64,000 bases of DNA, from assembly GCA_037157565.1 (NCBI GenBank), contig JAZHRO010000036.1, positions 17,782,501 through 17,846,500 of the forward strand. The letters are read 5' to 3'. Origin of the DNA: Thalassia testudinum. Its lineage: Eukaryota; Streptophyta; Magnoliopsida; Alismatales; Hydrocharitaceae. The position numbers and the translations under genes were made by a program. The notes beneath the pieces were generated by a model that did no database searches, had not been told where the DNA came from, and worked only from the letters and a program-made list of their open reading frames with translations. Positions 607-54,085 of this stretch are shown one piece after another. Position 1 is the stretch's first letter. Every line of letters begins with the position of its first letter.

Positions 607-805
607 CCCCCCTCCTCCATTCGTTCCCACACTGTAGACGAGAGGAGTGGGAGAGCATGGAGCAAGAGGAGGAGAAAGTGGAGAGCAAAGGAGGTCGGAG
701 GCCTGAAAGCAGAAGGAGACGAAGAGGTGTTGTAGTTGTTGTAGCTTTTGCAGGAGAGAGAGAGAGCTTGCAAATGGTTCTGCGGAGTTATTTTTCCACA
801 GAATC

Positions 806-1110
806 AGACATCTGGAGAGACCATTAGACGTCTGTCTAGACGTCCAGAGGTAATACCAGACGTCTAATAGCACATTTCTTTTCAATTATTTTTCTCCCTG
901 CCAAATTCTGACTTCACGTGAATGTGTTAGAGGTTGGGGAGGGGCGTCGGTGTGAGGACCGAGGCAATTTTAGACATCTGGGAGCATTTTCAAACATCTG
1001 AAGACACCTTCAGACGTCTTCACAAAGTTCCAGACGTCTGAAAGAAGTCACCCTAAGCAAGGTGAGCCCCTGAGTGCATTTAAGACATCTAAGGCTCTTC
1101 CCAGACATCT
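806..1110 (+). repeat. 20-bp phased AGACGTCT dyad array (T1)
   Basis: Octamers close to the palindrome AGACGTCT start at 806, 826, 838 and 858, then at 972, 992, 1012 and 1032, then at 1083 and 1103. Steps within runs are exactly 20 bp, except one 12-bp step where two 12-bp palindromes abut. The 12-bp spacers are not repeats of each other. The same arrangement occurs in T2 and T3. Confidence 0.85.
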
Positions 1111-1782
1111 GATTTTGGTCAGAGTGGTGTTTTTGGGCCCATCCAAGGCCCAAACGGAGTCGGATTTCCGCAAATGAAACATCATTGGATTCTGTTCGAG
1201 TTCCTTTATGTAATGATATAATGTCTATGTAGTTTTGAGCCCATTTGACTTGTCGGTCCATATTGTAGGTCTCCAGTCTATTGAATATACAGGACCTGCG
1301 AAGATGTCGAGAGCTACCGTACAAGCCCCCTTTCCACTCGGTTAACTGGTAGATTGGTTTTCTTTAACTCCAGAATTGATAATTGAATTGCATGCTTCTA
1401 TTGAACCTTAGGTTATGAGATGAACCTTAGGTCTGAAAGAGATGAATGCATGCTACTTTAGATAGATTCAATTGAACCCTAGGTTATGAAATGAACACTA
1501 GGGCTGGAAGAAATGCATGTGTAGCTAATAAATAAATGAGTTACCATAAATCATGAGCTGCCTGTGCTACCTGTAATACATACCTATACTGAATAATCGA
1601 TTATGGAATCTTGAGTTTCTGTTATGCATTTAATGAATCAGATATGTAAATGAGAAAGTCTATGTACGAACCCTACAGGGAATTTAGGAAGAAACCAAGA
1701 ATACTATAGTACGGAAAATGTGATGGTTTTGGAACACGTTGCCTACGGGCAGCTATTCGGATTTGGTTAAGGAAAGTGAGTT

Positions 1783-7007: not shown

Positions 7008-7358
7008 CAGGCAAAGAGGATGGTAGGGGAGGCTATCTCCTCTCTGAGGGGAGGTACCCCCTCTCCAGATCCAGCATCTTCCTCCACGAGGAGGAGGAAT
7101 TTCCTCTCCATCCAAAATCATAGAGTCCTCTGACCATGCCTCAACTCCTCCATCGCGTCTCGCCTCGACGACCACCACTGTGTCATGCCTCCACCGAATC
7201 CATCACCCCGATCAGTGGTGACATCACCGATACCAGCAACCACATCCGCTACTGCATTCTCAACTCGACTGCATCTTCAACTTAATGACTGTGCTTCGCC
7301 TCGACGACAACCGCCACTGTGATCCTTCTCTACTATTGTGCACCGTCCCCCTCACTTA

Positions 7359-7386
7359 AGACATCTAGGTGCTTCCCCAGACGTCT
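7359..7386 (+). repeat. AGAC-TCT dyad pair at 20-bp spacing in C LTR
   Basis: AGACATCT at 7359 and AGACGTCT at 7379 are 20 bp apart and preceded by CTTAAG, exactly as in T1, T2 and F. The 3' LTR copy has AGATGTCT at 26683 and AAACGTCT at 26703. The flanking LTR sequence is otherwise unrelated to the chromovirus LTRs. Confidence 0.8.
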
Positions 7387-7656
7387 GAGGAGGAAGGCTG
7401 ACCTTGTCCTCCTCTTCCTCTGTTCTTCTTCTTCAACAAACAACCAAACAGCAGCCACTACCAACTCCATGCATCGCCACCATCCCTGCATGCACCGACA
7501 ACCACCGTGCCCCCTCACACAACGCCAACACCACGCACCAGGCGCACACAACGCTTGCTCGTAGAAGCCCCATGCACGGCCTCTCCTTCCCTCTAGCCGG
7601 TGCCCACAGCCAATGGTCGCGCCCACGCTCACTGACACACAGCAGACCGTGCCCCA

Positions 7657-20274: not shown

Positions 20275-20280
20275 TAAAAA

Positions 20281-24821: not shown

Positions 24822-24824
24822 AAA

Positions 24825-26643: not shown

Positions 26644-26648
26644 TGCTC

Positions 26649-27921
26649 CATCTCCACTACTATGCTTCGTCCTCCTCACTTAAGATGTCTAGGCGCTTCC
26701 CCAAACGTCTGAGGAGGAAGGTCGGCCTCATCCTCCTCTTCCTTTGTTCTTCTTCTTCAACAAACAACCCAATAGTAGTCACCACCAACTCCACGCACCG
26801 CCACCATCCCCTCATGCACCAACGACCACCGCGCCCCCTCACGTAATGCCAACACCACGCACCAAGCGCGCAACACCCGCGCACAGAAGCCCCACGCACG
26901 GCCTCTCCTTCCCTTTAGCCGACGCCCACAGCCAACGGTCGTGCCCACGCTCACCGACAAATAGCAGGCCGTGCCCCACACCCTCACAAGAAGTAGCCGG
27001 CGCCACCAGCCCATGTGCATGCCCGGCCTCCTCCTCCTCTTTTTCTTCTTCTCCGTCAACAGAGAGGAGGAACTCAAAGCTCACCATCCATGTCCACACG
27101 TAGCCGGTCCCTCCACCCTCCATTCACTAAGTCGTCGACTCCAACAGACTCGCCGCCCCCTCACTAGTTCGACCACGCCCTTAGAGCCGACCACGACAGT
27201 CCGTGCATCCGTGTGGACGCCTGCCATTGTCGCTGCCCCTCCTTGTTGCCAATGGCAGCTCCGGCCACCGTTCAACGCGTCATCACCACCCACGTGTAGC
27301 CTTCATCATGACTAACCTTCTCCGAGCTTCCCGCGGTCCGCTATCACCTCTCCTCCATGCATGCATCAAGGAAAGAAAAGTTATGTTTTGGGTTTGATTT
27401 TTATTTACATTTGCTTGCCATTGATGAGATGTGGGATTTTTGATTTTTTTATTATTATATTAAGGTGAATTTGTAGCAGTGCACTTGTGCTTTCTCATAT
27501 TCACTTGACTCCTGTTATGCGCATCATTCGACATTGGATTTGGATTCAGATTTACACAATTTCTCTCTAGTACGCGTGCAATTGGACATTACATGAGATG
27601 CCACTACTGATTATATATTTATTGAATATTTTATCAAGGAAAAATTGCATAGATAGCCTTACATTCTTAAATTATTGTGTGTCTTCCTCCTTTCGTTGCA
27701 TTTCGCAGCGAATTTGAGCACAGATCTTGCATTCAATTGGACAAACACAAGGCAAACTTATTCATGAATTTATTGATTTGTTCCTCCCTATGGATACGAC
27801 CTAATCCATCGTAGTTAGTTTTACTGATAATCAGTTTTTTTCAGGATTTTTCCACCACGATTTACACATTACAATGACATTTTTCTGACGTATTTCTACA
27901 AGTGAAAAAAACTCTCGATCA
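26649..27921 (+). repeat. 3' LTR of element C, second part
   Basis: Resumes the C LTR after D and its TGCTC duplication, running through the dyad pair (26683, 26703), a U5-like TTCCTCCCTATGGATACGAC box at about 27780, and the end CTCTCGATCA. It matches 7330-7656 plus 9377-10321 of the 5' LTR. Confidence 0.9.
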
Positions 27922-32714: not shown

Positions 32715-32770
32715 TTAGAAAGCAGTAAATCTACTCTAGAAAGCAGTAAATCTATTCTAGAAAGCAGTAA
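32715..32770. repeat. Short tandem units CTAGAAAGCAGTAAA in A LTR
   Basis: About 21-bp units of the form AAATCTACTCTAGAAAGCAGT occur three times here and twice in the other A LTR (38708-38748). B has interrupted versions. Copy number differs between the two LTRs of one element, so it changed after insertion. Confidence 0.7.
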
Positions 32771-33053
32771 AAAGAATGGGGAGAGAGATATCCTCCTTGA
32801 CGATCACTTGAAGGACGAGCCAGATGGGACGATGCCTGGACGAAGGAGGATGGAACAGGACGAAGGAGGACGAAGCGGGAAGAACGAGAACGGGGCAGCA
32901 CGTCGTTGTCATCGTGGGATCCGCTTCTGAAAGGGGACAAAAAATTGATTTTATCTCGCGAGAAGCATCCCAGGTGTGGGACAAACTTCTCTTAAGCGTT
33001 GGAGAGGGAGAGAAGAGAAGGAAGGGATGAGAATTTCGTGTGGAGGGGGTCTC

Positions 33054-33061
33054 CTTTTATA
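33054..33061 (-). promoter_or_regulatory. TATA box, A 3' LTR
   Basis: TATAAAAG on the minus strand, conserved in all four A/B LTRs. Confidence 0.6.
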
Positions 33062-33113
33062 GTTGCAAGGAGTGAGGGCAATTTGGTCATTTAAATTTGA
33101 AAATCATTAATCA

Positions 33114-33151
33114 GGGGTCTTTAGTGACGGATAAAACCGTCGCTAAAGCCC
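33114..33151. promoter_or_regulatory. Palindrome upstream of TATA (A 3' LTR)
   Basis: CTTTAGTGACGG and CCGTCGCTAAAG face each other around ATAAAA, flanked by GGG(T) and CCC. It lies about 55-90 bp upstream of the TATA box. The other copies are at 39064-39101, 54138-54176 and 60126-60164. Confidence 0.7.
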
Positions 33152-33389
33152 CATCATCGGTGTAGTGGGGCATGGCCGCTCGCCTCCTCGCGCGTAACGC
33201 GCGCTCCACGTCCAGCTGATCTCAGCTGTCCGATCGTGAGATCGGATGGCTTAAGTCGCGCCTTCGCCTGTCCACGTGTGATCCTACGTAAGGTGCGGCG
33301 TACAATAGCGCATGGGCGCTATTGAGCACCCGCAGCCGCTCGATTCTCATCGCACGGTCACACGCGCCCGCTCCTCAGCGCTCGCTCGC

Positions 33390-33455
33390 CTACGAATGCA
33401 GATTCAAATCCACGTCTGAAGGCGACCGAGCGCCTTATCCACTGCGCTGTGCACG
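33390..33455 (-). other. tRNA-like segment (A 3' LTR)
   Basis: The minus strand has box-A-like AGCGCAGTGGATAAGGCG (33431-33448) and box-B-like GGATTTGAATC (33401-33411) at tRNA-like spacing. The right LTR copy has the better box B GGGTTCGAATC. Stems are incomplete, so this is not a tRNA gene. Confidence 0.45.
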
Positions 33456-34134
33456 TGGATAGGAGGCGGCCAAACTTTTGAACACGCGATCAGGACCATT
33501 GGATCAAGATCCAACGGTCAAGGAGGCTTCTTTAGGTGCAACTCAGAGGATGGGCGCGTCGATTGAGCTCCTCTCTCAGCCGTTGTATCTTGATCCAACG
33601 GCGGAGATGCATGCGTGCTATTGTCTTTAGTGATTGAGGGCAGCTGATTGGGCAGCTGAGATGCGCCACGTGGTGCCATCTTGGCCATCCATCTTCTGGA
33701 TGATGTAGATGGTGCCACAGGTGTCAGATTGAGTCGATTTTCATGCCGTTAGGCTGCGATTGTCGATCCAAATCCATTTGTGTGGACAGATTTGTCATTT
33801 GAAGTGCGGATTCACACCATCTTGGCCCTTGATCTTCTAGGGTTCCTCGATCTTTATCTGATGCTACAGGTGTCTGATTAGGGTGATCTTGGAGTCGTTG
33901 AACTCCAATCGTCACCCTGATCACATCTGTACGGTTGGATCTTCGATCCGAGGCCCCGATAAAAAATTTACCCTATCCATGAACATAAAAGGAGACAATT
34001 AACCTCCATTTTATTCAAACTAATCTAAATGCAAGATGATGCATGTTATGCAATATTTATAGTATGCAATGTAATCCTATGGTTAAGAACATGCATAAAT
34101 AGACATCTTAAGTAGTGTAAACATGTTTACATCA

Positions 34135-34166
34135 TACCCCCATGCCTAGCTTTTGCTAGTCCCTGG
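34135..34166 (-). other. Polypurine tract of element A
   Basis: The minus strand reads GGGACTAGCAAAAGC then TAGGCATGGGGGTA up to the 3' LTR. Same block as C and B. Confidence 0.78.
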
Positions 34167-35360
34167 AAAAAACTATATGCTATTTATAAAAGAATCAGGT
34201 TGGATTATTTGGGCATGAGTTATTTTCAATCATTAAGAAAATATTTACTTAGGATCTGAACTTTCAAAGACACAATAGTGCCTACGTATCTGCCAAAATG
34301 CAGACCGCCTTAAGCCCTCGCCTTATTCAAAGAAAAATTTCTTTTTCTCTTTTTCCTCTTTTCTAATTTTTTTGGATTTCAAGTTTTAGGGTTTAAGAGT
34401 GGCTTTCTACGGCCATTCAACTCACCTAAGATTTGATGAGAACCCTAAGTTCTAAGCATCTTATTGTGAATGTGATAGATTCGTTGATCGACGGTTAAAA
34501 CAGACTTCGGGTTTCTACGCCTCTAGGTGACCTAAAAAGGAAAATTATGCCTAAAGGTGTATCTTTACAACCGATAGCTTTCTCCCTACTTTTATTTTTT
34601 TACGGGGTCAACAAAAGGGTGAATCCAGTGTATATCTCCCCAGTTTATTCTACTTCTCCGCTTCTTCCTAAGTGTTTTGGGAATTTTCATTGCATTTATT
34701 GAGCTGGGTTCTGGACAACCGGTCGATGAGCTATTACCACTAACAACTTGCCAGCCATACTCGTGCGGCGAAGTGTGGTTTATTTCTTTTTTTCTTTTCT
34801 ACTTTTTTTTTTCTTTTTCTTTTCATTTTGACTCTCTTTTCTTTAAGTAGGTGGCTTCCCTGGTCTAGGATTTACCTAAAGGCAGCAAAAAGAGAAAGAT
34901 TCAGTGACTGGGCCCTGGACAACCTACCTATGGGCTATTACCCACGATAACTTGCCAGCCATATCACCCTAAAAGGTTCATTAGCTACCCAATTTCCGTT
35001 AAAATCGTCGAACAACGAGTCAGTGCAAAGAAAGTGTGTAGATGCTAAAAACTCAAAGTTCCCTCAAATCAAAGGGTGGGTTGATAAGTCATGTACTTAT
35101 CACCCAAACTTATTTACTCCAATTAAAATAGAATTCAGGTTGGTGAGGACTTGAACAACAAATCCACATTTTAGTGGATACACAGGCTGATTAAGTCCAA
35201 AGACCTGAAGGGTCTTTGTGTTCAGATCATAATGTAATATTTCCTAAGATTGAAAATTTTCTTAAACCCAAGTTCTCTTTCCTAATTCCATAATTTTTTT
35301 TAATAAAAGAAAATAAAATAAATCTACGGAGCTGACGAATAAATTCAGAGATGAATATCC
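34167..35360 (-). other. 3' spacer of element A
   Basis: About 1.2 kb without a gene. Two diverged units with CTGGACAACC and AACTTGCCAGCC lie at about 34704-34775 and 34910-34975. A stem-loop TGATAAGT-CATGT-ACTTATCA lies at 35082-35102. T-rich runs are at 34330-34375 and 34785-34825. Confidence 0.72.
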
Positions 35361-35398
35361 ACCCCCCCATGCCTATCTAATGCAATGTCCTCATTGTA
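35361..35398 (-). other. Mid-element purine motif (A)
   Basis: The minus strand reads ACAATGAGGACATTGC and then TAGGCATGGGGGGGTG immediately after the ORF. Confidence 0.68.
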
Positions 35399-37190
35399 TT
35401 AAAAAGACATAAAACAGAGTAAAATATAGTAGAAAGCACCTGAATTGCGTGAATGTCAAGTCCGCTCTGAGATAGAAACTAAAAAGAACTGTATATGTGC
35501 TGAATTTAGTGCCTTCAGCTAGGCACACTATACAAAGAAGAGAAATAAAGAATTTACAGGTGTAGGTCAGAATCAGAATAAACAGAAGAAACCTCTGACT
35601 TGTCAACAGATGTCCACAAATGTGGACCAGATTGTGGTGCAGACCCATACCCCATAATAGAGAATATCTCGGGTTCTAGATAAAAATTACCCAAAACCTA
35701 AAACTAGTATAAAAGTGGGGTCGAGTCTGCGATTTATGAGGATGCAACCCAAGACCAAAGAGTCGGGTTACAGAGAATTCAAGCTCAAAAGGAAAATCAT
35801 TGAATGTATGCTTAGGTTGGACATCCTCAGAACAGATGTTGTAAGGGTCCTAGTTTGATGGTTTCAGCTTAATAGGAACCCTTTGACTCAGTCTTCTACT
35901 TCCTCCAAAACTTGCTTCCCAAATCAAAATTTCCCAGCTCCTATCCTCCTCATTCAGAATGTCAAAATCTGGAACCTCCTGCATATTTATCACCGCATCT
36001 GAAATTTCCAAGTCTAAAAGATGTGACTGAATCAGAATTGACTTGGATCTAGTTATCTCAAAAATAGAATCATCGATAAGCTCAATGGGGTGTAACTGAC
36101 AATCAGGGCATTTGATTGAATCCTCCAGAAGATGCGATTCTGGATCCGTAATGTGAGCCCTAATAAGATCAGTTTCCTCAGTTATTGGGCTATCAAATAA
36201 TCTATCAGATTCCTCAAGCCCAATCGTCTCACAGAAATCGTGTTCTGTAAACTCGCGTAAGACTTCGCAACTTGAATCTTCACCATTAGAATCAAGATAT
36301 GTATTAATGTATGTCCCAAAATCATCTGTCACTTTCTGTTCCAAGGAGACATACGTTTCCTCGTACCCTGGCTCAAGGATCTCAGGTGAAGAAATCAGAT
36401 CATCCTTAATTGGTTGCTCTAATTCAATCTGGTCAGCCTCGTAACATGTGTCCCCCCCAACAGGTGCCTGAACAGGTTCTGAAATTAGCTCTCCTAAAGA
36501 GGGTTCATCCTGGGAATCATCCCATGATTGAATCAAAGCGACCACAAATCTCATCCTCAATTTTACTAACTTCCCAAGTAGAAACTTACCCAGGTTCTTA
36601 TCCTTAACATCCTGGATCCAATTCAACAAATACTTATTCAAATCATCAATCATCTAAATCAGGGGTTCCAATTTTTCAATGCAAGGTGTTGGTTGAACTT
36701 CTAAAGATTGTATGATATTCCTCAAGTTAGCCAGAACCTTATCTTGAACCTAGTTACCCTGAACCAAATGAGTTGGTTCAGGGTTGGGCGGGTTTGGGGT
36801 CAGTGTAAAGGAGTTAACGAATTGAGATTCGTTATACCCTTCCTGATAATAGGTCATTTTGGATTGTTCAAAAGGTGGTGATGACCTAAAGGCAGTGTAA
36901 TCAGAGGATGGGTAAAGATCAATGTATCCCTCCTGATTGTAGATCGAATTAGGTTGTCCATGAAAGGATGACGATATATAATCAATGTGGCTCTGAGAAG
37001 GATAGAAATCACAATCATAGTGTTCAGGGTTAGACCCTAAACATGGAGGTCCAGAACTGTATCCCCAATCCGAGTTATCCCAACTAACTGATGGTTGATT
37101 ACAGTACAAGTCGGGATAATCATCATGTTGAGGATAATTCAAAACAAGAGGGAAAGAGAGGGAATGCGTGTAATATGTGGAAGGATTCAT
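35391..37190 (-). pseudogene. Element A orphan acidic ORF (about 600 codons)
   Basis: The ATG at 37190 (MNPSTYYTHS) opens one frame running to 35391, interrupted by stops at 36750-36752, 36654-36656, 35850-35852 and 35676-35678. Three of these replace CAG codons present in B. In order: a Tyr/Ser/Pro/Asn-rich domain with QPSVSWDNSDWGYSSGPP; a helical region with MIDDLNKYLLNWIQDVKD and FLLGKLVKLRMRFVVALIQ; an Asp/Glu-rich domain of about 200 residues; the motif GMGLHHNLVHICG; and a hydrophobic tail with CLAEGTKFS. The tail shows that the family protein is longer than the B copy. Function unknown; its place after the primer site suggests a Gag-like or Ogre ORF1-like role. Confidence 0.78.
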
Positions 37191-38345
37191 GGGAGATGGG
37201 AGGAAGAAAGGTGCCCTGCAATACAAACAATCAAACCTGTTCTTAAGTGCGCTAGCCTAAAGACCTACAGACTCCCAAAACCCGTCTTGAGACAAAGGAA
37301 CGATTTGATCTACTTCTGTTTATTTAATCCAACCAGTTAGAAGGAGGGACTGGGGAGAAGGTTCTTCCTTCGGCTTGCACCTCCGTCTCCTAGTGTACCC
37401 CCCAGCCACGATCGTTTGATTCTGCTCCCCTAGCTAGACATTAGATTGAACAGTAGAAATAGACTAATAGAAAATAATCTCATTCTAGGCTCTGAAAAGC
37501 GAGTTGAATCCTTAAGGCCAACGTCTACTCTATTTTATTTAGGGCTAGGTTTGAATGTGCTTTGGAATGTGATGGGCCCTTTATTTGAGTTGTGCACTTA
37601 ATGATTGATTGATTTGTGTGTGCGTGCACAACCAGTGATTTTCAAGCAAGATTATTTTTGATGTGGTGAATTTTAGGGTTCAAATCTTGCTTAGTAGCTT
37701 TTAGGGTTCAACTTTAGGTGTTTTCAAGCAAGTTTTGTTGGCACACCAGGTTTTGAAAGCATAGGTGAAGATGTTTTCCTTTAAAACTTAAAAGAATGTG
37801 GAGTGCCTAGTAAATCCCTAAGAGTTGAACCTATATGGCAGCTACTTGATGAGTTGATTTTAATTGAAGTGGTGCAGCCTAATCAACTCAAACAATTGGC
37901 CTATTGCACCACTTAATTAGGCACACAAATGATTACCTAATCTGATTTCTACTCAATTATGTGTTTGGATGTGTGTACCGGCTACAGAGGTTGGTTTACC
38001 GGTTGAGTTTGAAAATCAGATGAGGTTGTGTACCTCTGTGAGATTTTTTTTTATTATTTTTAAATGTGGAGGTTGGGGCAGGTGTGGGTGTCAAACAACA
38101 AACAATCTAACCTTAGAGTTTATAAGAACACCTAGCTTGATTGATGTTTGTGTTATTACGTGGTGGAACGAAATCTAATGGGTGGGAGGTGGGGATAACT
38201 CACAGAACCTTTAACAACACTTTTCTCCAATCTACCACTTTTGCTCGTCTCGAAAGAGTACCTGCAATTACAATAAGAAAGGAGAGAAGTGAGGTAAATG
38301 ATTCGTATGTTGTAAAAACGCGAAGAAAAATCAAAGAGCATCACC
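37191..38345 (-). other. Untranslated leader of element A
   Basis: About 1.15 kb. The block 37331-37419 is nearly shared with B (58221-58310) and D (23721-23810) and includes the self-complementary GGAAGAACCTTCTCC on the coding strand. Directly before the ORF the coding strand reads GATTGTTTGTATTGCAG, a good splice-acceptor look-alike. No gene seen. Confidence 0.68.
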
Positions 38346-38363
38346 TCCCCGGCAACGGCGCCA
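38346..38363 (-). other. tRNA-Asp primer-binding site (A)
   Basis: The minus strand is TGGCGCCGTTGCCGGGGA, matching the complement of the plant tRNA-Asp 3' end over 18 bases, three bases from the 5' LTR. Confidence 0.92.
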
Positions 38364-38366
38364 AAA

Positions 38367-40114
38367 TGTTGAACGTGCGAATTGCTATACTAACGTGTTT
38401 GGTTTTGAAAACCTGTCGTTGTAGTTTGAAAGTGAAGAACTCGTGTTCAACAAATAAAATTTATACCAGAATGGAAATCCTGAGTCGAACTCAGGGAGGC
38501 GGACGTTTGATTTAAAAACACGCGTTTGTTTTATTTGTCACGAAGTAAATTAATTAATTAGAACTATCTAACTATTTACAATAAATAGAAGAGAGAGAAT
38601 ATTACAAAAAAAAATCAGAAAGAGATGTAGAATGAACATGGAATTTATTATCAGAAGGATTGTTCATTACACTAAATAGTACGACTAGAAAGTGAGAAAA
38701 TGATTACACTAGAAAGCAGTAAATCTACTCTAGAAAGCAGTAAAAAGAATGGGGAGAGAGATATCCTCCTTGACGGTCGCTTGGAGGACAAGCTGGACGG
38801 GACGACGCCTGGACGAAGGACGAAGCAGGAAGAATGGGAACAGGGCAGCATGTCATCGTCATTGCGGGATCCTCTTCCGAAAGGGGACAAAAAATTGACT
38901 TTATCTCACAAGAAGCATCCCGGGTGTGGGACAAGCTTCTCTTGAGCTTTGGAGAGGGAGAGAAGAGAAGGAAGGGATCAGAATTTCATGTGAAGGGGAT
39001 CTCCTTTTATAGTTACAAGTAGTGAGGGCAATTTTGTCATTTTAATTTGAAAATCATTAAGCAGGGGCCTTTAGTACGGATAAAACCGTCACTAAAGCCC
39101 CATCGTGGGCGTAGTGGGGCACCGCCCATGCACGGTCGCTCGCCTCCTCGCTCGTAACGTATGCTCCACGTCCAGCTGATCTCAGCTGTTCGATTGTGAG
39201 ATCGGACGCTGAAGTCGTGCCTCCGCCCGCCTTTTCTGTGCACCCTCCCACGTGCGATCCCGTGTGAGGCGTGGCGTGTAATAGCACGTGGGTGCTATCG
39301 AGCGCCCATAGCCGCTCGATTCTCATCGCACGGTCGCACGCGCCCACTCCTCAGCGCTCGCTCGCCTGCGAATGCAGATTCGAACCCGCGTCTGAAGGCA
39401 ACCGAGTGACTTATCAACTGCACTACGTGTGTGGATGGGTGGGTGGCTGAGCTTTTGAACATGCAATCAGGACCATTGGATCAAGATCCAACGGTCAAGG
39501 CGGCTTCTTCTGGTGCAACTCAGAGGATGGGCGGGCCGGTTGAGCTCCTCTCTCAGCCGTTGGATCTTGATCCAACGGTGGAGATGCATGCGCACTATTG
39601 TCTTCAGTGATTGAGGGCAGCTGATTGGGCGACCGAGATGGCGCCATGTGGTGCCATGTTGGCTGTCCATCTTCTGGATGATGTAGATGGTGCCACGGGT
39701 GTCGGATTGAGTCGATTTTCACGCCATTAGGCTGCGATCGTCGATCCGAATCCATTTGTGTTGTTGGATTTGTCATTTGAAGTGTAGATTCACACCATCT
39801 TGGCCCTTTTATCTTCTAGGGTTCCTCAATCTTTATCTGATGGTACAGGTGTCTGATTAGGGCAATCTTGGAGTCGTTGAACTCCAATCGTTGCCCTGAT
39901 CACATCTGTACGGTTGAATCTTCAATTCGAGGCCCCGATAAAAAAATTTGCCCTGTCCATGAACATAAAAGGAGACAATTAACCTCCATTTTATTCAAAC
40001 TAATCTAAATGCAAGATGATGCATGTTATTTAATATTTATAGTATGCAATGCAATCCTATGCTTAAAAACATGCATAAATAGACATCTTAAGTAGTGTAA
40101 ACATGTTTACATCA
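38367..40114 (-). repeat. 5' LTR of element A
   Basis: Plus-strand ends are TGTTGAACGTG and GTTTACATCA. It contains a TATA box (39004-39011), a palindrome (39064-39101), and a tRNA-like segment with box B GGGTTCGAATC (39377-39387) and box A TAGTGCAGTTGATAAGTC (39408-39425). Differences from the 3' LTR are mostly C/T or G/A. Confidence 0.9.
39004..39011 (-). promoter_or_regulatory. TATA box, A 5' LTR
   Basis: TATAAAAG on the minus strand. Its place in the 5' LTR makes it the likely promoter of element A. Confidence 0.6.
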
Positions 40115-40894
40115 CCCACCCATACCTGATTACCCGCCTACTCACTACTCACCTGCAACTCACTCACGTAGGCCTGGACTCTATTCTAGACCCGATAATC
40201 CATATCCGAATCTGGTTACATGCTGGGTTTGAGAGAAAGTGAAGGATTTGTGAGATAGAGGGGGAGGTTTTTTTCTCTCTGAAGGCTTGGCCTTGTACAA
40301 TACTTAGCCTCTAAGGAGAGGCTTTGCCCCTGTGCGACCCTTAACCTCTGAAGAAGAGAAGGAATTGCAGGCTTTGAAGGAGAAGGTAGCTTTACAAGAA
40401 GAAGAAGAGAATAAAGCCTTAAGTTTCTAAAGGCTTTGAAAAATAAGAAGAGAGAAGGAGAAGGCTTTCTGAAGAGCCTTGTGCTCTGTAAAGACGTTTG
40501 ATATGATTTGATTATGGTTACTGTTGAATAATTTAAGAACCTAAGATTGAATTCTGATTGAAGATTACTGTTGAAATATTGAATGCATGCTTAATTAAAG
40601 AGAATAAGTGGTGATTCAAATTACCATTGTTTTGATACTCTTTTCTTTTTTATTCCATGATCTTGAGAGCTTCATTGAATAATAATTTGATCATACTTAT
40701 TCATTACATATTTGTTATTATTGTGCTCAATGATTCTAGATGAAGATTATCATGTGAATTGTCATTATTTGCTCCCTATGATCGACCTCGAACTCTTTTG
40801 TGATTCTAAGTATACAAATTTAAATGAATTGAGCAATTTTGTCCAATACTATGATGCATCTCTTAAACAGCGACGAATTCGCTTAAACAGTTTA

Positions 40895-42000: not shown

Positions 42001-42165
42001 TGAAATGATCATTCCAAAGAGTCATTTGGATTTTTTTTTTTGAAATTTAGGGACCTTATCACAATTTATACACACCAAAAGGATCTCGTGTGGAGTATTT
42101 TAAGTTTTGAAAGGGGTTCAGCATAATTTTCCTAGCACCCCCATACCCACACCTTACCCACCATA
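42001..42165 (+). repeat. T3 5' LTR, first piece
   Basis: Start of the T3 LTR up to the CCATA duplication of T2. It runs into a C-rich stretch that continues after T2 at 52536. Confidence 0.72.
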
Positions 42166-42195
42166 TGTTACAAACTCACTCAAGACATTTTTTTA

Positions 42196-43023
42196 AGATG
42201 TCTGGGAGGTGTCCCAGACGTCTGGCCAGACATCTGGAACCACTTCCAGACATTTGGGATCTATTTTCGGTGGCACGCGGGACTGCATCTGCATGCAGGC
42301 ACGCGCAAACCCGCAACCGTCTTCCTCTCTCTTTTTCCCACTCTCCTCCTGCGACCGCAGGCGCAGCGCTGTCGCTTTCTCTCTCTCTCTCCCCGCGTGG
42401 CTTTAAAAATGCCACGCCCTCTCCATCACTCTCTTCACCTCCGCCCCCTTCCTCTTCTCCTTCCAGCCGGTGCGCGAGTGCGAGCGTGAGCAAGCGGCGG
42501 CGGCGACAGCCGCGGTGGGTACGGGAGGAGGTGCTGCGCGAGGGAGGAGGCGTCGGACGTGAGGGCTCGAGGAGCAGTAGGCATCCAGGGAGACGCGGGA
42601 GGCCTGCTGCAGCTCGAGCAGCAGGCAGACGAGGCGCGGCGCGACCGTGCGTCGCGAGCGGAGGGTGAGTCGTGCCCTGATTCTGGAATTTTCTCCAGAA
42701 TCAGATGTTTGGGCTTTCAACCAGATGGCGGGGAAGACGTCTGGAGGACTGTCCAGACATCTGGTAAGTAAGTTATTTTCTTACCTTCTTCCTTTCCTAC
42801 GACCGTCCGTACTGAGAGAGAGAAATGGGTACGCGCAGGGTCTGAGATTCGCATCCAACGCGAATTAGACGTCTGGCTGCAGTGCCAGACGTCCGGGGTG
42901 ACCATCGGACGTCTGGGAACTAGGCCAGATGCCCTCGCAGGCTTCTGGACGTCTGAGAGACCACGTAGAGCAAAGGTAACCTCTGATCCACTTTTTAAGA
43001 CGTCTGGAAGAGGTTCCAGATGT
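42196..43023 (+). repeat. 20-bp phased dyad arrays (T2 5' LTR)
   Basis: AGAYRTCT-like octamers start at 42196, 42216, 42228, 42248; 42703, 42723, 42735, 42755; 42867, 42887, 42907, 42927, 42947; and 42996, 43016. Steps are 20 bp, or 12 bp where two 12-mers CCAGACGTCTGG abut. The five-member run 42867-42954 keeps exact phase although its 12-bp spacers differ. The 3' LTR repeats this at about 49873-50730. Confidence 0.87.
42402..42409 (+). promoter_or_regulatory. TATA-like box, T2 5' LTR
   Basis: TTTAAAAA after a CT-rich tract, kept at 50099-50106 in the 3' LTR and aligned with TATAAG of T1. Confidence 0.45.
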
Positions 43024-44832
43024 CTGATTTTGCACTGTTTCGTCATTTTCGACCCGTTTAGGGCCCGTTCGGAGTCCGTTTTCCACGTTTCGAGTTGCGT
43101 GCTTTTTGAAATTAAATCCTCTACCCGTCTACAGTAGCTTTATACTATTTTAAAAAACTCCTTATGTTTGATCCTTGTGATAGGACCCCGTTCCGTTGCA
43201 GTCTCGGGGGTTGCGGAGGCACGCGGGATTCCCGACCATGCCCCTAGTACTCCTATTGTAACCGGTAGAGTGGCTTTTAAGTTTATTGGTATAATCTGTT
43301 AAATTATGGAACCATAAATAGCACCTAGGACATTGCATGAATCCTAGGAATGAGAAACTAGAATGAATGGTAGATCCTAGGGTGTTGCATGAATCCTAGG
43401 GCTGGAAAACTAGATTGTATGATAGATCCTAGGGTATGGCATGAATCCTAGGATGGGAAGAACTAGTGGAATACATGAATACTGCAATCTTGGAAAATGT
43501 GGAAAGGAAATAATAGCTGCCTGTGAATTGAATTAACAGCTTCCTACTATGAATAAATAAATGTGATTGAGAACATGGATTGTAAGAACGTGAAATTGGA
43601 AAGTGAAACCTAGATGTTCTGAGTTAAAAGAGCTGGAACCCTACGGGGAATTAGGAGTGGAACTCCTGGAAAGATAAAGGAATGGAACTGAGAAAGAAAG
43701 ACGTGGTAGTGTGCTGTCTCTAGGGTACGTAGTACCAAGGGAAGTACCTGTACCTATTTAGTGCAGAGCGGAGCCAGCCGCCCCAGGGACCCGGGGTTAG
43801 GACTGGCCACTTTGTACCGACTTGCTGGCCCTCGCATACGTAGTACCGAGGAGAGCTACTAGTGTAGGGAGGGCACTAGCTACCCCACGGGCCCCGGGGT
43901 TCTGCTAGCCTCCTACACCGACTTGTTAGGCCCACTGGGCAAACCAGGGTAGTCAGGCGAGGGTGCGCGGATTGTGGAGGGGCAAGGCTCCTGTTTGGTT
44001 ACTGTGGAGGGGTTGGACCCCTGTTACTGAGAGGGCTCTGCCCTGTACTGGTTCGGTGCTGTGCTTTGGGCGCACCCGTTAATGGAAACGACTGACCGCA
44101 TGCCAATGCGGGTTAGCTACCTGTGCGTTTATCGCGCGTGCCGTAGTCACCATTACATCTGTCCGTGACCTTGGGGTGGTTGACTGAGAGTAGGATCACC
44201 ATGGGGGACTCTCCCGGCCAGGAGAGCACCACGTGCTACTTCTACTTTTTGGAAAAGACTGCAATCAAGATCGTTCCCATGAGGAACATTCGCGATCTAG
44301 TAAAGGATCTGAGAAATAAATGAAATCGTGAGACAATTGAAAGACGTAAATAAAGAAAGTAATAGAACATAACAGCTACTGTACACTCTACTTTTTCTTT
44401 AGTTTTAGTTGCCACTCTACTCAGTGTTTTGTTGACGTGTTACACTCGTTACCTTTCAGGATCAGGTGTTGAGCAGCCAGGGTCAGCGGCTACAGAGGAC
44501 GCTGGGCCGAGTAGGGCCCAGTAGAGTTACCACTATTCTCTTGTACCTCTTTTTGTTCCACTGTAGTGAGTAGTTATTGTTACCGCTGTACTTTTCTTTA
44601 CCTGCAGTTCATATTATGTTATAAATGTTGTTCTACTGTTGTGGTGGTATATACTGTAGTGGGTTCTTTCCTCACTGCTGTATTTCCTTACTGTTAGTTG
44701 TATTCATGCTGAATGTGGTTTATTTTACTGCACTTTTGGTTACTTCCTTGTTGGACGACTAGGTCTTGGGATTAGTCGAGTTGGTCCGGTTCTCGTGTCT
44801 CGTAAGGACTCGGGAATCTGGTCGTTACAAGA

Positions 44833-44844
44833 TGGTATCAGAGC
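44833..44844 (+). other. tRNA-Met primer-binding site (T2)
   Basis: TGGTATCAGAGC, complementary to the 3' end of plant initiator tRNA-Met, three bases after the 5' LTR. Confidence 0.95.
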
Positions 44845-46325: not shown

Positions 46326-49300
46326 CACACAGGGATGCCAGAGCTTCGGGCTCGGTAGTGGCAGGTATGGTTTCAGTTTCCGGCAGACTCGTTTACACAC
46401 TTTTCGATTCCGGCACTACGCACTCGTTTGTTGCAGCCAGTTTCGCAGTTAGTTTGGGCCAGGATTTTACGCTGTTAGAGAATCTGTTCATAATCAGAGG
46501 TCTGAGTGGTCAGCTGTTTGTAGCTGAGGAGGTGTACACGGATTGCGAGGTCAGCGTCGGGGGACATAGCCTGCCAGCTAACCTGATTATGATACAGATG
46601 GAGGACTTTGGAGTGATTCTGGGGATGGACTGGCTGTCCGCTTACCACGCCTTGGTAGACTGTTTTGAGAGGAAGATTGTCTTCTCCATGCCGGAGTTGC
46701 CTTCTTTCGAGTTTCACTGACAGCCAGTGGACGGAGGCTTCAGGTGCATTTCGGCACTTCGGGCGGCAAGACTTTTGAGCCAGGGGTGTGAGGGCTTCCT
46801 AGCTTGTGTGGTGGCAAAGCCTAGCCCTGTGGCAGACTTCCACAGCATCCCGGTGGTCAGAGAGTACCCTGACGTGTTTCCAGATGAATTACCAGGACTA
46901 CCACCCGAGTGCGAGATCGAGTTTGAGATCTCGCTAGTACCAAGAACCAGCCCCATCTCCACTGCGCCATACAGGATGGCACCGCTTGAGCTACGAGAGC
47001 TTAAGTCTCAGTTGCAGGACCTTTTGGAGAAGGGTTTCGTGAGGCCCAGTGCATCTCCCTGGGGAGCCCCGGTACTGTTTGTGAAAAAGAAGGATGGTAC
47101 CCTACGCCTTTGTGTGAACTACCGACAGCTGAATAGGGTCACCATCAAGAATAGATATCCGCTGCCGAGGATCGACGACTTGTTTGACCAATTGCGGGGT
47201 GCCACGGTGTTCTCCAAGATCGACTTGAGGTCGAGATACCACCAGTTGAGGATCAGGGAGACTGACGTCTCCAAGACAGCTTTCTGCACCCGGTACGGAC
47301 ACTACAAGTTTTTGGTCATGCCGTTTGGGCTGACCAATGCCCCCGCTGCTTTCATGGATCTGATGAACCGGGTGTTTAGACCGTACTTGGACCAGTTCGT
47401 GGTGGTTTTCATAGATGATGTACTCATCTATTCTAGAGATCAAACGCAGCACGAACAGCACTTACGGATGGTTCTGGACACTCTAAGATGACGTAGGCTG
47501 TACGCCAAATACAGCAAGTGCGAGTTCTGGTTGAGGGAGGTGACCTTCTTAGGTCATGTGATCTCTAGAGATGGCTTGGCAGTGGACCCAGCCAAGGTCG
47601 AGGCAGTACTCAGGTGGGAGAGACCGCATTCAGTCACTGAGATTCACAGTTTCCTGGGACTGGCAGGCTACTACAGACGATTCATCAGAGGATTTTCACA
47701 GATTGCGCGTCCTATGACACAGTTGACCCGGAAGGATGTGCCCTTCACTTGGACAGACGCCTGTGAGGCGTGTTTTCTGGAGCTGAAGGAGAGGTTGACC
47801 TCGGCTCCCGTGCTCACCATCCCTGACAGTAGTGGCGGGTTCGTTGTGTACACGGACGCCTCCTTGCAGGGGTTAGGAGGTGTGCTCATGCAGAGGGGTC
47901 ACGTTGTCGCTTACGCTTCGCGACAACTGAAGCCCCATGAGCATACCTACCCTACCCACGACCTAGAGTTGGCAGCGGTTGTCTTCGGGCAGAAGACCTG
48001 GAGGCACTACTTGTACGGTGAGACCTTCGAGATTTTCACAGATCACACGAGCCTCAGATACCTTTTTTATCAGAAGGATCTCAACATGAGACAGAGACTT
48101 TGGTTGGAGCTCCTGAAGGACTACGACTGCAGCATCTCCTACCACCCGGGGAAGGCCAATGTGGTGGTTGACGCCTTGAGCCGTAAGGCGCCCGCACACT
48201 TGGCCAGTTTACAGTTACAGAGTTGGAGCCTTTTGGAGGAGGTGGGCAGTTGGCGACCCCTGGAGTTACAGGGGCACTGTGGGGCAGTGACGGTGACACG
48301 ACAGACTAGGCCAGAGCTGATAGACCGCATCATCACAGGACAGATGGCCGATCCGTACTTGCAGTCCTTGTGCAACAGAGTACTATCAGGAGACCCAGGG
48401 GACTTCTCTATCACATACCAGGTACTGTGCCCGAGGGGACGGTTGTGCGTCCCCAGAGACGAGGAGCTGTTGAGAGAGCTTCTGACTGAGGCACACAGTT
48501 CCAGATTCACCATACATCCCAGAAACACGAAGATGTACCACGACTTGAGAAGCAAGTTTTGGTGGAGGGGGATGAAGCGGGATGTGGGTGAATTCGTGCA
48601 GCAGCGCTTAGTGTGCCAGCAGGTGAAAGCCGAGCATCAGAGGCCTGTAGGGCCACTACAGCCACTTCTAGTGCCAGAGTGGAAGTGGGAGAGCATCACC
48701 ATGGATTTGGTGGTGGGCTTACCTGTTACCCATCGAGGGCACGATGCTGTCTGGGTAATTGTGGATAGACTGACGAAGACGGCACGATTCCTGCTGATCC
48801 GAGTCACTTTGGGACCAGCACAGTTAGTAGAGAGGTATATCCGCGACGTGGTACGACTACACGGAGTTCTGCAGGAGATCGTATCCGATCGGGATACCCG
48901 CTTTACGTCCCAGTTTTGGGCTGAGTTTCAGCAGGCCTTGGGGACGCGGTTGAGGTTTAGTACAGCTTACCACCCCCAGACGGACGGACAGTCTGAGCGC
49001 ACGATACAGACACTTGAGGACCTTTTGCGTGCCTGTGTACTGGACTGGAGGGGCTCTTGGGAGGAACACCTGCCCCTGGTGGAGTTTGCATACAACAACA
49101 GTTATCACTCGAGCATCGGCATGGCTCCCTACGAGGCTTTGTACGGACGCAGGTGTACGGTACCCTTGAGTTGGGTTGAAGTGGGGACCAAGTGGGAGGT
49201 TGGCCCCAGGTTGATCCGACAGAGTCAGGAGGTAGTCGAGCAGATCCACAGGCTACTCCACACTGTCAGGAGTAGACAGAAGAGCTACGCGGATCGGAGA

Positions 49301-49773
49301 CGTAGAGAGGTGCAGTTTGAGGTTGGGGACCACATCTTTCTCCGTGTTTCGCCCATGAAGGGCCTGCAGCGGTTTGGGGTGAGAGGGAAGCTCGCGCCGA
49401 GGTTTGTGGGGCCTTTGAGGTCCTGGAGCGGGTTAGACCCGTTGCTTACAGGCTTGCCCTCCCTCCCCAGCTTTCTAGTGTGCACAACGTGTTCCACGTG
49501 TCCAACCTCAGGAAGTACTTAGCCGATCCCAGTCACGTACTGAGTCACGAGAGCGTCGAGGTGGACGACAACCTTACCTACCCCGAGCGGCCAGTGCAGA
49601 TTCTAGACCGAGCCGTTTGCAGTTTGAGACGAAAGCAAGTGCCCCTGGTAAAGGTTTTATGGAGGAGCCAGCGGTACGAGGAGGCTACCTGGGAGCCTGA
49701 GGCGGCAATGCGAGAGAGGTACCCGGAACTCTTCGTGGGTACGTCTTTTCGGACCGGCTTCGGTCCCCTTTGA
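46326..49773 (+). pseudogene. pol: T2 pol: protease, reverse transcriptase, RNase H, integrase, chromodomain
   Basis: Same frame as gag. Protease: LFDSGTTHSF at about 46397-46430. Reverse transcriptase: [45 protein letters not shown] and [10 protein letters not shown] with the catalytic pair at 47414-47419. RNase [34 protein letters not shown]. Integrase: a zinc region from 48480 in which the first Cys of the HHCC set is Arg ([10 protein letters not shown]), then the core with [20 protein letters not shown] and [12 protein letters not shown]. Chromodomain: VKVLWRSQRYEEATWEPE at 49650-49705. Stops at 46718-46720 and 47489-47491 (TGA) and a one-base loss in a T run at about 49413 break it; the tail 49480-49773 is in another frame. 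Ends at TGA 49771-49773. Confidence 0.95.
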
Positions 49774-49849: not shown

Positions 49850-52530
49850 TGTTATATTATTACGAACGCACTCAAGACGTTTTTTTTAAGGTATCTGGGA
49901 GGTGTCCCAGACGTCTGGCCAGACGTATGGAACCACTTCCAGACGTCTGGGATCTATTTTCGGTGGCACGCGGGACTGCATCTGCGCACAGGCGCGCACA
50001 GACCCTCAACCGTCTTCCTCTCTCTTTTTCCCTCTCTCCTCCTGCGGCCGCAGGCGCAGCGCTGTCGCTCTCTCTCTATCTATCTCTCCCTGCGCGGCTT
50101 TAAAAATGCCATGCCCTCTCCCTCACTCTCTTCACCTCCTCCCCCTTCCTCTTCTCCATCCAACTGGTGCGCGAGTGCGAGCGTGAGCGAGCGGCGGCGG
50201 CAACAGCCGCGGTGGGTGCGGGAGGAGGTGCTGCGCGAGGGAGGAGGCGTCTGCTGTGAGGGCTCGAGCCTGCCGGGGCTGCTACAGCCGACCGGCGGGG
50301 GGAGCAGCAGGCGTCTGGGGTGACGCGGGAGGCCTGCTGCAGCTCGAGCAACAGGCCGTGCGTCGCGAGCGGAGGGCGAGTCGCGCCCTGATTCTGGAAT
50401 TTTCTCCAGAATCAAACTCTAGGCTTTCAACCAGACAACGGGGAAGACGTCTGGAGGACTGTCTAGAAATCTGGTAAGTAAGTTATTTTTGTACCTTCTT
50501 CCTTTCCTATGACCATCCGCACTAAGAGAGAAATGGGTACGTGCAGGGTCTGAGATTCGCATCCAACGCGAATCAGACGTCTGGCTGCAGTGCCAGACGT
50601 CCGGGGTGACCATTGGACGTCTGGGAACTAGGCCAGATGCCCCCGCAGGCTTCTGGACGTCTGAGAGACCACGCCGAGCAAAGGTAACCTCTGATCCACT
50701 TTTTAAGACGTCGGGAAGAGGTTCCAGACGTCTGATTTTGCACTGTTTCGTCGTTTTCGACCCGTTTAGGGCCCGTTCGGAGTCCATTTTTCGCATTTCG
50801 AGTTGTGTGCTTTTCGGAATTAAATCCTCTACCCGTCTGCAGTAGCTTTATACTATTTTAAAAAACTCCTTGTGTTTGATCCTTGTGATAGGACCCCATT
50901 CCGTTGCAGTCTCGGGGGTTGCGGAGGCACGCGGGATTCCCGACCACGCCCCCAGTACTCCTGTTGTAACCGGTAGAGTGGCTTTTAAGTTTATTGGTAT
51001 AATCTGTTAAATTATGGAACCATAAATAGCACCTAGGACATTGCATGAATCCTAGGAATGAGAAACTAGAATGAATGGTAGATCCTAGGGTGTTGCATGA
51101 ATCGTAGGGCTGGAAAATTATATTGTATGATAGATCTTAGGGTATGGCATGAATCCTAGGATGGGAAGAACCAGTGGAATACATGAATACTGCAGTCTTG
51201 GAAAATGTGGAAAGGAAATAATAGCTGCCTGTGAATTGAATTAATAGTTGCTTACTATGAATAAATAAACGTGATTGAGAACATGGATTGTAAGAACGTG
51301 AAACTGGAAAGTGAAACCTAGATGTTCTGAGTTAAAAGAGCTGGAACCCTACGGGAAATTAGGAGTGGAACTCCTGGAAAGATAAAGGAATGGAACTGAG
51401 AAATAAAGACGTGGTAGTGTGCTGTCTCTTGGGTATGTAGTACCAAGGGAAGTACCTGTACCTGTTTAGTGCAGAGCGGAGCCAATCGCCCCAGGGACCC
51501 GGGGTTAGGACTGGCCACTTTGTACCGACTTGCTGGCCCTCGTGTACGTAGTACCGAGGGGAGCTACTAGTGTAGGGAGGGCACTAGCTACCCCACGGGC
51601 CCCGGGGTTCTGCTAGCCTCCTACACCGACTTGTTAGGCCCACTGGGCAAACCAAGGTAGTCAGGCGAGGGTGCGCGGACTGTGGAGGGGCAAGGCTCCT
51701 GTTTGGTTACTGTGGAGGGGTTGGACCCCTGTTATTGAGAGGGCTTTGCCCTGTACCAAGCTGTGCTTTGGGCGCACCCGTTAACGGAAACGACTGACCA
51801 CGTGCCAGTGCGGGTTAGCTATATGTGCCTTTATCACGCGTGCCGTAGTCACCGATACATCTGTCCGTGACCTTGGGGTGGTTGACTGAGAGTAGGATCA
51901 CCACGGGGGACTCTCCCGGCTAGGAGAGCACCACATGCTACTTCTACTTTTTGGAAAAGACTGCAATCAAGATCGTTCCCACGAGGAACATTCGAGATCA
52001 AGTAAAGGACCTGAGAAATAAATGAAATCGTGAGACAATTGAAAGACGTAAATAAAGAAAGTAACATAACATAACAGCTACTGTACACTCTACTATTTCT
52101 TTAGTTTTAGTTGCCACTCTACTCAGTGTTTTGCTGACGTGCTACACCGTTACCTTTCAGGATCAGGTGTTGAGCAGCCAGGGTCAGTGGCTGCAGAGGA
52201 CGCTAGGCCAAGTAGGGCCCAGTAGAGTTACCACCGTTCTCTTGTACCTCTTTTTGTTCCACTGTAGTGAGTAGTTCTTATTACCGCTGTACTTTTCTTT
52301 ACCTGCAGTTCATATCATGTTATAAATGTTGTTCTACTGTTGTGGTGGTATATACTGTAGTGGCTTCTTTCCTTACTGCTGTATTTCCTTACTGTTAGTT
52401 ATATTCATGCTGAATGTGGTTTATTTTACTGCACTTTTGGTTACTTCCTCGTTGGACGACTAGGTCTTGGGATTAGTCGAGTCGGTCCGATTCTCGTGCC
52501 TCGTAGGGGCTCGGGAATCGGGTCGTTACA
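49850..52530 (+). repeat. 3' LTR of T2
   Basis: 2681 bp, starts TGTTATATTATTACGAACGC and ends GGTCGTTACA. It matches the 5' LTR throughout, with an 8-bp difference near the start and two larger indels in the CG-rich block (near 50270-50360). It carries the same dyad arrays, TATA-like box (50099-50106), donor-like site (50683/50684) and repeat units. Confidence 0.93.
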
Positions 52531-52535
52531 CCATA

Positions 52536-53320
52536 CAACCACCCATGCCTCCATACAACCCCCCATGCCACCATACCCCACCCCCCATCCCCACACACCC
52601 TTAAACACCCCCTCCTCCATTTTGTTCTCCACCACAGTAGCCCTCCTCCCCTGCCGTAGAGAGGTGTGTAGCCGAGAAAGGGAGAGCATGAAGGAGATTG
52701 AGAGAGGGTGAGGTTAGGAGCAGAGGAAGAGAGGCACTGCGAGGAAGGCTCTGCGCGCAGAGCTGGGAGTCATTTTTCTGAATTATTAAATGTCTGCGAT
52801 GTTTGCCAGGTGTCTGGAGGGATCATCGAAAGTCTAAAGGGAGTTCAGGACGTTTGGTGGCATGCAAGTATCAGGGGCATCGAGAAGGTGCGTTGGTGCG
52901 ACATTCAAGGCACTTTAGGACATCTGGAAGCAGCGCCAGACATCTGACTGCTCCCTCAAATGATTGGGAGCAGTGCCAGACATTTTGAACACCCTCAGAC
53001 GGCTGTGAAGGGAAGCAGAGGATGGAAACAGATTCAAGAACGCAAGGTGAGATCCTACGCTCATTTAAGATGTCTGGGACTCTCCCCACACATTTGATTT
53101 TGATTAGGGTGCACGTATTTGGGCCGGTTCAGGACCCAAACGAAGTCGGTTTTGCACAAAGTACTGTTGGTTTTCCTTATGAATTCCCTACATGTTAGGG
53201 TTGTATCCATACTATTTTGAGCTTATTTCACATAATGGTCAACAATGTTAATGATTGACAGGATCAACTATTTGGAATAGGTCTCCAGTCCGTAGTGCAC
53301 ACAAGACCCTTGGATACATC
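52536..53320 (+). repeat. T3 5' LTR, second piece
   Basis: Continues the C-rich stretch after T2 and aligns with T1 450-1290: decayed TATA (TTAAAC near 52602), phased dyads at 52788, 52808, 52828, 52848 and 52918, 52938, 52958, 52978, a pair at 53066/53086, and donor-like CAAG|GTGAGA at 53046/53047. Cut by B after ACATC. No gene. Confidence 0.8.
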
Positions 53321-54077: not shown

Positions 54078-54085
54078 CTTTTATA
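54078..54085 (-). promoter_or_regulatory. TATA box, B 3' LTR
   Basis: TATAAAAG on the minus strand. Confidence 0.6.

Follow-up and report, generated by a model that had tools for sequence, protein, structure and literature searches.

Phased palindrome arrays in the long terminal repeats of nested retrotransposons from Thalassia testudinum: a candidate cis-regulatory module

A nest of LTR retrotransposons

The window, meaning the whole 64-kb stretch of DNA analysed here, is a nest of LTR retrotransposons comprising T1, T2, T3, E4 and others. The 5' LTR of T2 occupies 2.66 kb of the forward strand (42166..44829); its ends, like the target-site duplication CCATA (42161-42165 and 52531-52535), were judged by eye. 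The 3' LTR, with arrays as in the 5' LTR, lies on the same strand at about 49850..52530, and self-BLAST finds the two to be 92% identical (42168-44829 versus 49860-52530). A primer-binding site, TGGTATCAGAGC, which we take to be of the initiator Met tRNA type, is found at 44833..44844 on the forward strand. The coding region, also on the forward strand, contains a reverse transcriptase piece (46727..47491; RVT_1, E 2.3e-28), then RNase H with the H2C2 and core parts of integrase (47531..49522), and then a chromodomain (49543..49734; PF00385, 29.6 bits against a cut-off of 25.1). The RNase H and integrase H2C2 matches are far over the Pfam cut-off, and the core integrase (rve) is under it. Given the order of reverse transcriptase, RNase H and integrase together with the chromodomain, T2 is a Ty3/gypsy chromovirus. 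Two further coding pieces were examined, and both carry stops. Relatives of the T2 proteins are 45-61% identical among the matches listed (the best 120 of 7958), and those with a named source are from plants.

T1, T2 and T3 have LTRs that are related to one another, with 58-73% identity over the aligned parts. T3 is split by T2, since the alignment of T1 with T3 spans the T2 site, and again by a further element. E4 is a fourth LTR family, its first LTR lying at 6542-7656 plus 9372-10321 and its second at 15030-15812 plus 26643-27921, and its LTR ends differ from those of T2. Two open frames, 293 and 247 residues long, lie in the internal region of E4 (10322-15029). The 293-residue frame has no homologue at E 0.001, and E4 has no match at E 1e-5 to the best 120 of the 7958 T2-related proteins. 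Thus, the idea that E4 is a partner mobilised by T2 proteins is unsupported, its open frame being without a homologue, its LTR ends different and its coding region without a T2-like match. Three related nested LTR elements are also present (15813-26642, 32367-40127 and 53321-61088), the last with a 539-residue open frame on the minus strand (56498-58117) that has no Pfam match.

The palindrome and its phasing

A sequence-only reading of this DNA reported an octamer, AGACGTCT, recurring every 20 bp in the LTRs of T1, T2 and T3. The phasing is real and more extensive than had been claimed. The octamer is the centre of a 12-mer palindrome, P, with the sequence CCAGACGTCTGG, and the arrays have a simple grammar: successive P's are separated by 8 bp (a 20-bp step) or abut one another (a 12-bp step). 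Exact octamers number 14 in the window, compared with 0.5 expected and a largest value of 3 in 100 shuffles. The statement that the octamer is often extended to the full palindrome was too strong, as the perfect 12-mer is present in only 3 copies (42214, 49907 and 49939). At a threshold of at least 9 of 12 letters there are 53 matches in the window: 43 in the T1, T2 and T3 LTRs, of which 4 are off register (42937, 50307, 50645 and 52995), 2 in E4, and 8 elsewhere, which have no partner within 80 bp. Spacings of up to 30 bp among these matches are 20 (15 cases), 12 (5), 8 (2, from overlapping matches) and 19 (1). When the T2 3' LTR is masked, 10 of the 23 nearest-neighbour gaps of up to 100 bp are exactly 20, with 12 and 40 each occurring 3 times; the other 7 are 71 (twice), 32, 8, 51, 90 and 19.

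Pairs at exactly 20 bp, each member matching at least 6 of 8 letters, number 6 in T1, 6 in the T2 5' LTR, 5 in the T2 3' LTR and 2 in T3. This is far over shuffled sequence, for which the means are 0.005-0.025 and the maximum is 1 in 200 shuffles each, the test covering these four LTR copies. Furthermore, when all 256 palindromic octamers are compared (at most 1 mismatch, spacings of 9-60, the T2 3' LTR masked and both E4 LTRs counted), AGACGTCT ranks first, with 12 pairs at 20 bp against 5 for the runner-up. All 21 of the starts reported previously are in register, although 4 of them match only 4-5 of the 8 letters. The matches are 8, 7, 7, 5 and 7 of 8 at 42867/887/907/927/947 and 6, 5, 8 and 7 at 42703/723/735/755 in T2, 7, 6, 8 and 8 at 972/992/1012/1032 in T1, and 6, 6, 5 and 6 (52788..52848) and 6, 7, 4 and 6 (52918..52978) in T3, which lacks any exact octamer and makes the weakest case. 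What had been missed was the 12-bp step from 42723 to 42735, the quartets 806/826/838/858 and 42196/42216/42228/42248, the pairs 1083/1103, 42998/43018 and 53068/53088, and the E4 pair 7359/7379, repeated at 26683/26703.

The T2 5' LTR holds 15 registers of P. These form two quartets with offsets of 0, +20, +32 and +52 (42194..42257 and 42701..42764), a five-copy chain with 20-bp steps whose fourth copy is decayed (42865..42956), and a final P-8-P pair (42996..43027). The corresponding arrays of the 3' LTR are at 49887..49950, 50411..50474 (its first copy badly decayed), 50573..50664 and 50704..50735. T1 has one quartet with the same offsets (804..867), a four-copy chain with 20-bp steps (970..1041) and a final pair (1081..1112). 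T3 has two decayed chains, a (52786..52857, four registers at 20 bp) and b (52916..52987), as well as a final pair (53066..53097). Each E4 LTR carries a single P-8-P module (7357..7388 and 26681..26712). It is only over this module that the E4 LTR aligns to the LTRs of T1-T3 (32-38 bp, 76-84% identity, E 0.003-0.05, these E values coming from a very small database), which suggests that it may be a transferable or convergent site. For the statistics on copies given below, 11 arrays with 37 copies and 23 spacers were used, decayed members being assigned by register; the T2 3' LTR and the second E4 LTR, as duplicates, and the pair 20247/20267 were excluded.

Several other observations can be placed here. 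The excluded pair, P-8-P-like and isolated (20245-20276), is internal to the 15813-26642 element and adjoins a pyrimidine-rich stretch. A second phased palindrome is present farther downstream in the T1-T3 LTRs (1404-1504, 43324-43453 and 61207-61233), consisting of CCTAGG-like boxes 19 bp apart: about 1405/1424 and 1478/1497 in T1, 43324/43343, 43376/43395 and 43428/43447 in T2, and 61208/61227 in T3. The letters between these boxes are partly conserved as well. A scan of viral contigs for the P-8-P pattern gave 0 matches, and protein scans found no relative, whether run with the RNase H/integrase part of T2 or with an alignment of 12 sequences.

Position within the LTR

A TATA-like box, TTTAAAA, is present in T2 at 42402..42408 on the forward strand, and others are at 598 in T1 and 7002 in E4, all of them motif matches only; a search of T3 gave no TATA-like match. 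All of the T1 clusters, the E4 module and three of the four T2 clusters lie downstream of these boxes, most sites being about 200-620 bp beyond the presumed TATA box, and only the first T2 quartet is upstream. Splice-donor-like motifs, again motif matches only, precede the final pairs. In T1 and T3 this is CAAGGTGAG, near 1058 (1059-1066) and near 53043 (53044-53051). In T2, CTG/GTAAGTAAG (42761-42770) abuts the final copy of the second quartet, and AAAGGTAAC (42974-42981) is found shortly before the final pair. Consequently, the array may lie partly in exon 1 and partly in a leader intron. With regard to a CpG island, a trait of Sirevirus motif clusters, the CpG observed/expected ratio is 0.85 over the T2 arrays and 0.53 in T1 and T3.

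DNA site or RNA structure

Given that most of the clusters are downstream of a TATA-like box, the arrays could act in RNA. P-8-P units would then form hairpins of 10-12 bp in the 5' leader, or the palindromes would be used for RNA dimerisation, packaging or small-RNA production. There are precedents, as the available parts of these reports describe them: for the RNA of yeast Ty3, dimerisation by way of a short palindrome close to the 5' end has been proposed (PMC11381356), and palindromes of maize Sirevirus elements coincide with small RNAs (PMC10760457, PMC5311732). RNA dimerisation through the palindromes is a serious rival to a DNA site. Predicted RNA folding of the arrays is indeed better than that of shuffles (z -5.6, -5.5 and -2.4; for T3, 1 of 100 shuffles folded as well), as palindrome arrays would be expected to do. 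However, there is no covariation between neighbouring P's: no compensation is seen over the 37 copies in 11 arrays (p 0.24-0.52). Furthermore, the two halves of one P are complementary at 7.35 of 12 positions, compared with 7.90 of 12 for halves of different P's (p 0.99), and so neither pairing is visibly repaired. That one octamer recurs through 37 copies and 11 arrays without compensation favours recognition of the sequence over pairing alone.

Folding is better with the real spacers than with letter-shuffled ones (combined p 0.0085), but this advantage is gone when spacers are swapped in from other arrays (combined p 0.22). The spacer ends pair somewhat more than expected, with 21 of 46 at positions 1-8 and 2-7 compared with 14.2 in column shuffles (p 0.016, or 0.09 when G-U is allowed), but positions 3-6 pair below chance (1/23 versus 6.4). 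Strict self-complementarity of the 8-mer spacers is not over chance (p 0.35). Hairpins with compensating arms were not found in the arrays, where the only such signal is a weak one at the spacer ends. Nor are low-energy 110-nt windows a specific signature of the arrays. In the T2 5' LTR the two lowest begin at 42596 and 42546, ahead of the second quartet or at its border, and it is the third (42846) that covers the five-copy chain; the lowest in T1 and E4 fall elsewhere, the lowest in the upstream part of T3 (52871) overlaps chain b, and in the internal region of T2 values under -40 are reached by 94 of 492 such windows as well.

Other features fit poorly with a role in RNA. A hairpin does not need a loop of exactly 8, the first T2 quartet is upstream of the TATA-like box, and a packaging partner common to E4 and T2 is unlikely, because the E4 LTR ends are different and an exact search of the window places the T2 primer-binding site only at 44833 and 62617. 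We consider it rather unlikely that the arrays act chiefly in RNA. A recurrent fixed word at a fixed step instead favours recognition of the DNA by a dimeric protein. The proposal that a 20-bp step would put every dyad on the same face of the helix is only a rough fit: with a helical repeat of 10.5 bp, a 20-bp step makes 1.90 turns, which adds up to a drift of about 137 degrees along the five-copy chain. It also left out the junctions of 12 bp.

Spacers, duplication and conservation

The 12 bp between octamers had been taken for unrelated spacers. This holds insofar as most are not recent duplicates, but in part they have the form GG-N8-CC with a purine/pyrimidine gradient. The flanks that face a spacer are GG in 14 of 23 cases and CC in 15 of 23. 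At the outer edges of the arrays the left flank has T in 11/11 and CC in 0/11, and the right flank has GA in 6/11 and GG in 3/11. Purines make up 55/69 letters at spacer positions 1-3 and 22/69 at positions 6-8 (p 2e-8, although homologous spacers are not independent). Because of these flanks and this gradient, the repeat unit is better written T-N-AGACGTCT-GG-RRR-N5-CC-AGACGTCT-GA. The mean identity between spacers is 0.31, compared with 0.25 under the null, and a value this high was reached in 0 of 2000 shuffles.

Another explanation is that the arrays are inert relics: 20-bp tandem duplications would have given rise to them, the spacers would have diverged, and the likeness of the P's would be residual or the result of homogenisation, with no function. 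T3 is the best case for such an origin. Spacers 1 and 3 of chain b are alike at 6/8, making a 40-bp duplication there likely, and spacers 2 and 3 of chain a are alike at 5/8. As a general origin of the arrays, however, recent tandem duplication was rejected, being clear in T3 only. Most spacers within arrays are near chance in their likeness (mean 0.32, against 0.25 for the null of all spacers), yet the 37 P copies average about 9/12 letters. In addition, the flanks at array edges differ in a regular way from those facing spacers (CC in 0/11 at the left edge as opposed to 15/23), and E4 carries the P-8-P module alone.

A further question is whether P is retained between elements. Selection had been proposed to act on the phase rather than the sequence, a view that is not supported, as the letters of P are conserved too, clearly so in two of three element comparisons, and the spacers are partly patterned. 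These comparisons used gapped alignments of the array regions by three methods, in which the aligner may pair any P with any other, a freedom that favours P. The agreement for P letters is 0.72-0.73 between T1 and T2, versus 0.51-0.52 for other letters of the array region (p 6e-5 to 1e-4), and 0.69-0.72 versus 0.45-0.46 between T2 and T3 (p 6e-6 to 1e-4). Between T1 and T3 it is 0.70-0.73 versus 0.59-0.63, a weak result (p 0.035-0.24) in which P has scarcely any advantage over the sequence around it, as would be expected of a relic. The gapped alignments were relied upon over an ungapped, fixed-offset comparison anchored on P, which gave agreement at 112/144 positions in P, 21/48 in spacers, and 43/120 and 64/120 in flanks.

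The two LTRs of T2, presumed identical at insertion, show how P changes in a dead copy. They differ at 20/179 positions in P, several of these changes stemming from one poorly aligned copy (42703), but at 0/72 in spacers (p 0.0013). The distal LTR differs at 86/1776 positions (p 0.0014 versus P and 0.077 versus spacers), and the remainder of the array region at 44/608 (p 0.12 versus P). Once the copy is dead, therefore, P mutates no more slowly than the sequence around it. Since there is no sign that P is intrinsically slow to mutate, which also speaks against a relic, its retention between elements suggests, with moderate strength, selection in active copies. Taken together, these results make it unlikely that the arrays are inert.

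The earlier observation that decay falls mainly on the central CG is borne out. Of the 37 copies, 14 have CG at the centre, 13 CA, 9 TG and 1 AG; thus 23 of the centres have changed, 22 of these to CA or TG, which is the pattern that decay of methylated CG would be expected to leave. In the T2 LTR pair, transitions account for 17 of 20 changes in P and 103 of 130 elsewhere in the LTR, and the CG-class change rates are alike (5/29 in P and 51/289 elsewhere). An argument that decay occurs only at C/G letters was dropped because of these like rates and because, A to T apart, any change must involve C or G.

A model for the arrays

In the model that we prefer, the arrays are a candidate LTR cis-regulatory module bound by a dimeric sequence-specific protein, to which we give a probability of roughly 45%. 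Each P (CCAGACGTCTGG), with its two-fold symmetry, would be recognised by a dimeric DNA-binding protein, most likely one of the host's transcription factors. Neighbouring P's would be kept 20 bp apart, or sometimes 12, so that the bound dimers can touch or cooperate. Lying in the LTR leader, the sites could act as a downstream promoter or enhancer, or could protect this stretch from silencing. Inserted copies would probably become methylated and lose the central CG. Active lineages, on the other hand, would keep P by selection and renew it partly through duplication of 20- or 40-bp blocks. An octamer unmatched among 256, a phase far over shuffles, and an E4 alignment limited to the P-8-P module were counted for this model, as were the conservation of P in two of three comparisons, the change of centres to CA or TG, and the lack of partners near the 8 matches elsewhere. 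The lack of any sign of dyad repair, the weak T1-T3 advantage, the helical drift, the RNA folding and the possibly intronic final pairs count against it. The evidence comes from one 64-kb window, with decayed members assigned by register.

It is very unlikely that the arrays instead bind a protein encoded by their own element (for example, integrase/chromodomain or Gag) or counter silencing like the VANC target arrays of Arabidopsis VANDAL transposons: VANC proteins do bind arrays of short motifs in noncoding parts of their own elements, and the VANC6 motif is shared by an unrelated element much as P is by E4, but the VANC motifs are arrayed in the same orientation (available text of PMC5735166), no extra protein gene was found in T2, short of full annotation, and no coding region common to E4 and T2 was found. 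A bolder version of the cis-regulatory model is that of a phased lattice: unrelated LTR families of one plant would share a modular code of P's, set at steps of 20 and 12 bp beyond the promoter, through which a single oligomerising protein, from the host or the element, is brought in to open the LTR or shield it. The site, the step and the spacer-facing letters would be under selection together, and methylation would erase the code after insertion. We regard this as improbable.

The presence of the arrays in T2 and of one module in an LTR family that otherwise cannot be aligned suggests that a single kind of regulatory site may be acquired by, or exchanged between, different retrotransposons. 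Furthermore, because the step, the site and the spacer can be varied separately, these arrays would permit a direct test of whether such boxes are DNA sites or RNA structures.

Comparison with known systems

Among the open-licence papers listed, no title or abstract start concerning phased LTR palindromes was found, and among the titles of open-licence papers in which CAGACGTCTG occurs, none concerns a plant retrotransposon. Binding by bZIP-type factors and a likeness to auxin-response half sites had been put forward as guesses. The ocs/as-1 elements have two ACGT-type sites about 12 bp apart that are bound by TGA bZIP factors. This spacing resembles that of the three abutting P junctions, but ocs/as-1 has TGACG where P has AGACG, and the main step of P is 20 bp; the CG centre of P is kept in 14/37 copies. 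Auxin response elements have TGTC half-sites. An intact P has CGTC and lacks TGTC, and TGTC is found on one strand of the octamer in 16/37 copies, where the centre has changed.

VANDAL elements are DNA transposons. In the portions available of the work on them (PMC5735166), their VANC target arrays are, like P, short motifs in noncoding transposon DNA that are renewed in tandem and shared with an unrelated element. Unlike P, the VANC motif is not palindromic, and its own binding protein is known (PMC5735166). The Del elements, which are also Ty3/gypsy, have long LTRs with a 5' CpG island in a variable, C/G-rich 5' part, and can be likened to T2 by description; the text of that paper, as available, has no words beginning with "palindrom" or "tandem" (PMC4029996). 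In various elements the cis-regulatory regions often consist of repeat arrays, at times palindromic, and maize Ty3 elements generally have no structure peak (PMC10760457, from the parts available).

The closest known kind is that of the palindromic repeated motifs in the LTRs of Sirevirus elements, and the claim that an LTR of this layout had not been described overlooked them, although no fixed step is reported for them in the parts compared (PMC2829016, seen in part, as throughout this paragraph). In Sirevirus the motif is a palindromic box of which each element has 8-32 copies, 66-100% alike, that cluster in the LTR and in many cases before the envelope gene too; such high-copy boxes were described as a Sirevirus feature that is absent from the classic Ty1/copia elements compared (PMC2829016). 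The likeness to T2 lies in the many copies of a palindromic box in an LTR, and the box of Usier, GTCGGACGTCCGAC, has an ACGT-centred dyad, as does P. The palindromes of maize Sirevirus elements likewise form LTR clusters with strong predicted structure, and one is also found in Helitrons, as P is in E4 (PMC10760457, PMC5311732). However, Sirevirus elements belong to Ty1/copia and T2 to Ty3/gypsy; the core of their motif is CGG-CCG (except in Tnd-1) and that of P is AGAC-GTCT; and their clusters are upstream of the TATA box, whereas those of P are mostly downstream. Finally, a fixed spacing like the 20 or 12 bp of P is not reported for the Sirevirus motifs in the parts compared (PMC2829016). 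Strictly phased palindromic boxes in the LTRs of a Ty3/gypsy chromovirus thus provide a counterpart to the Sirevirus boxes.
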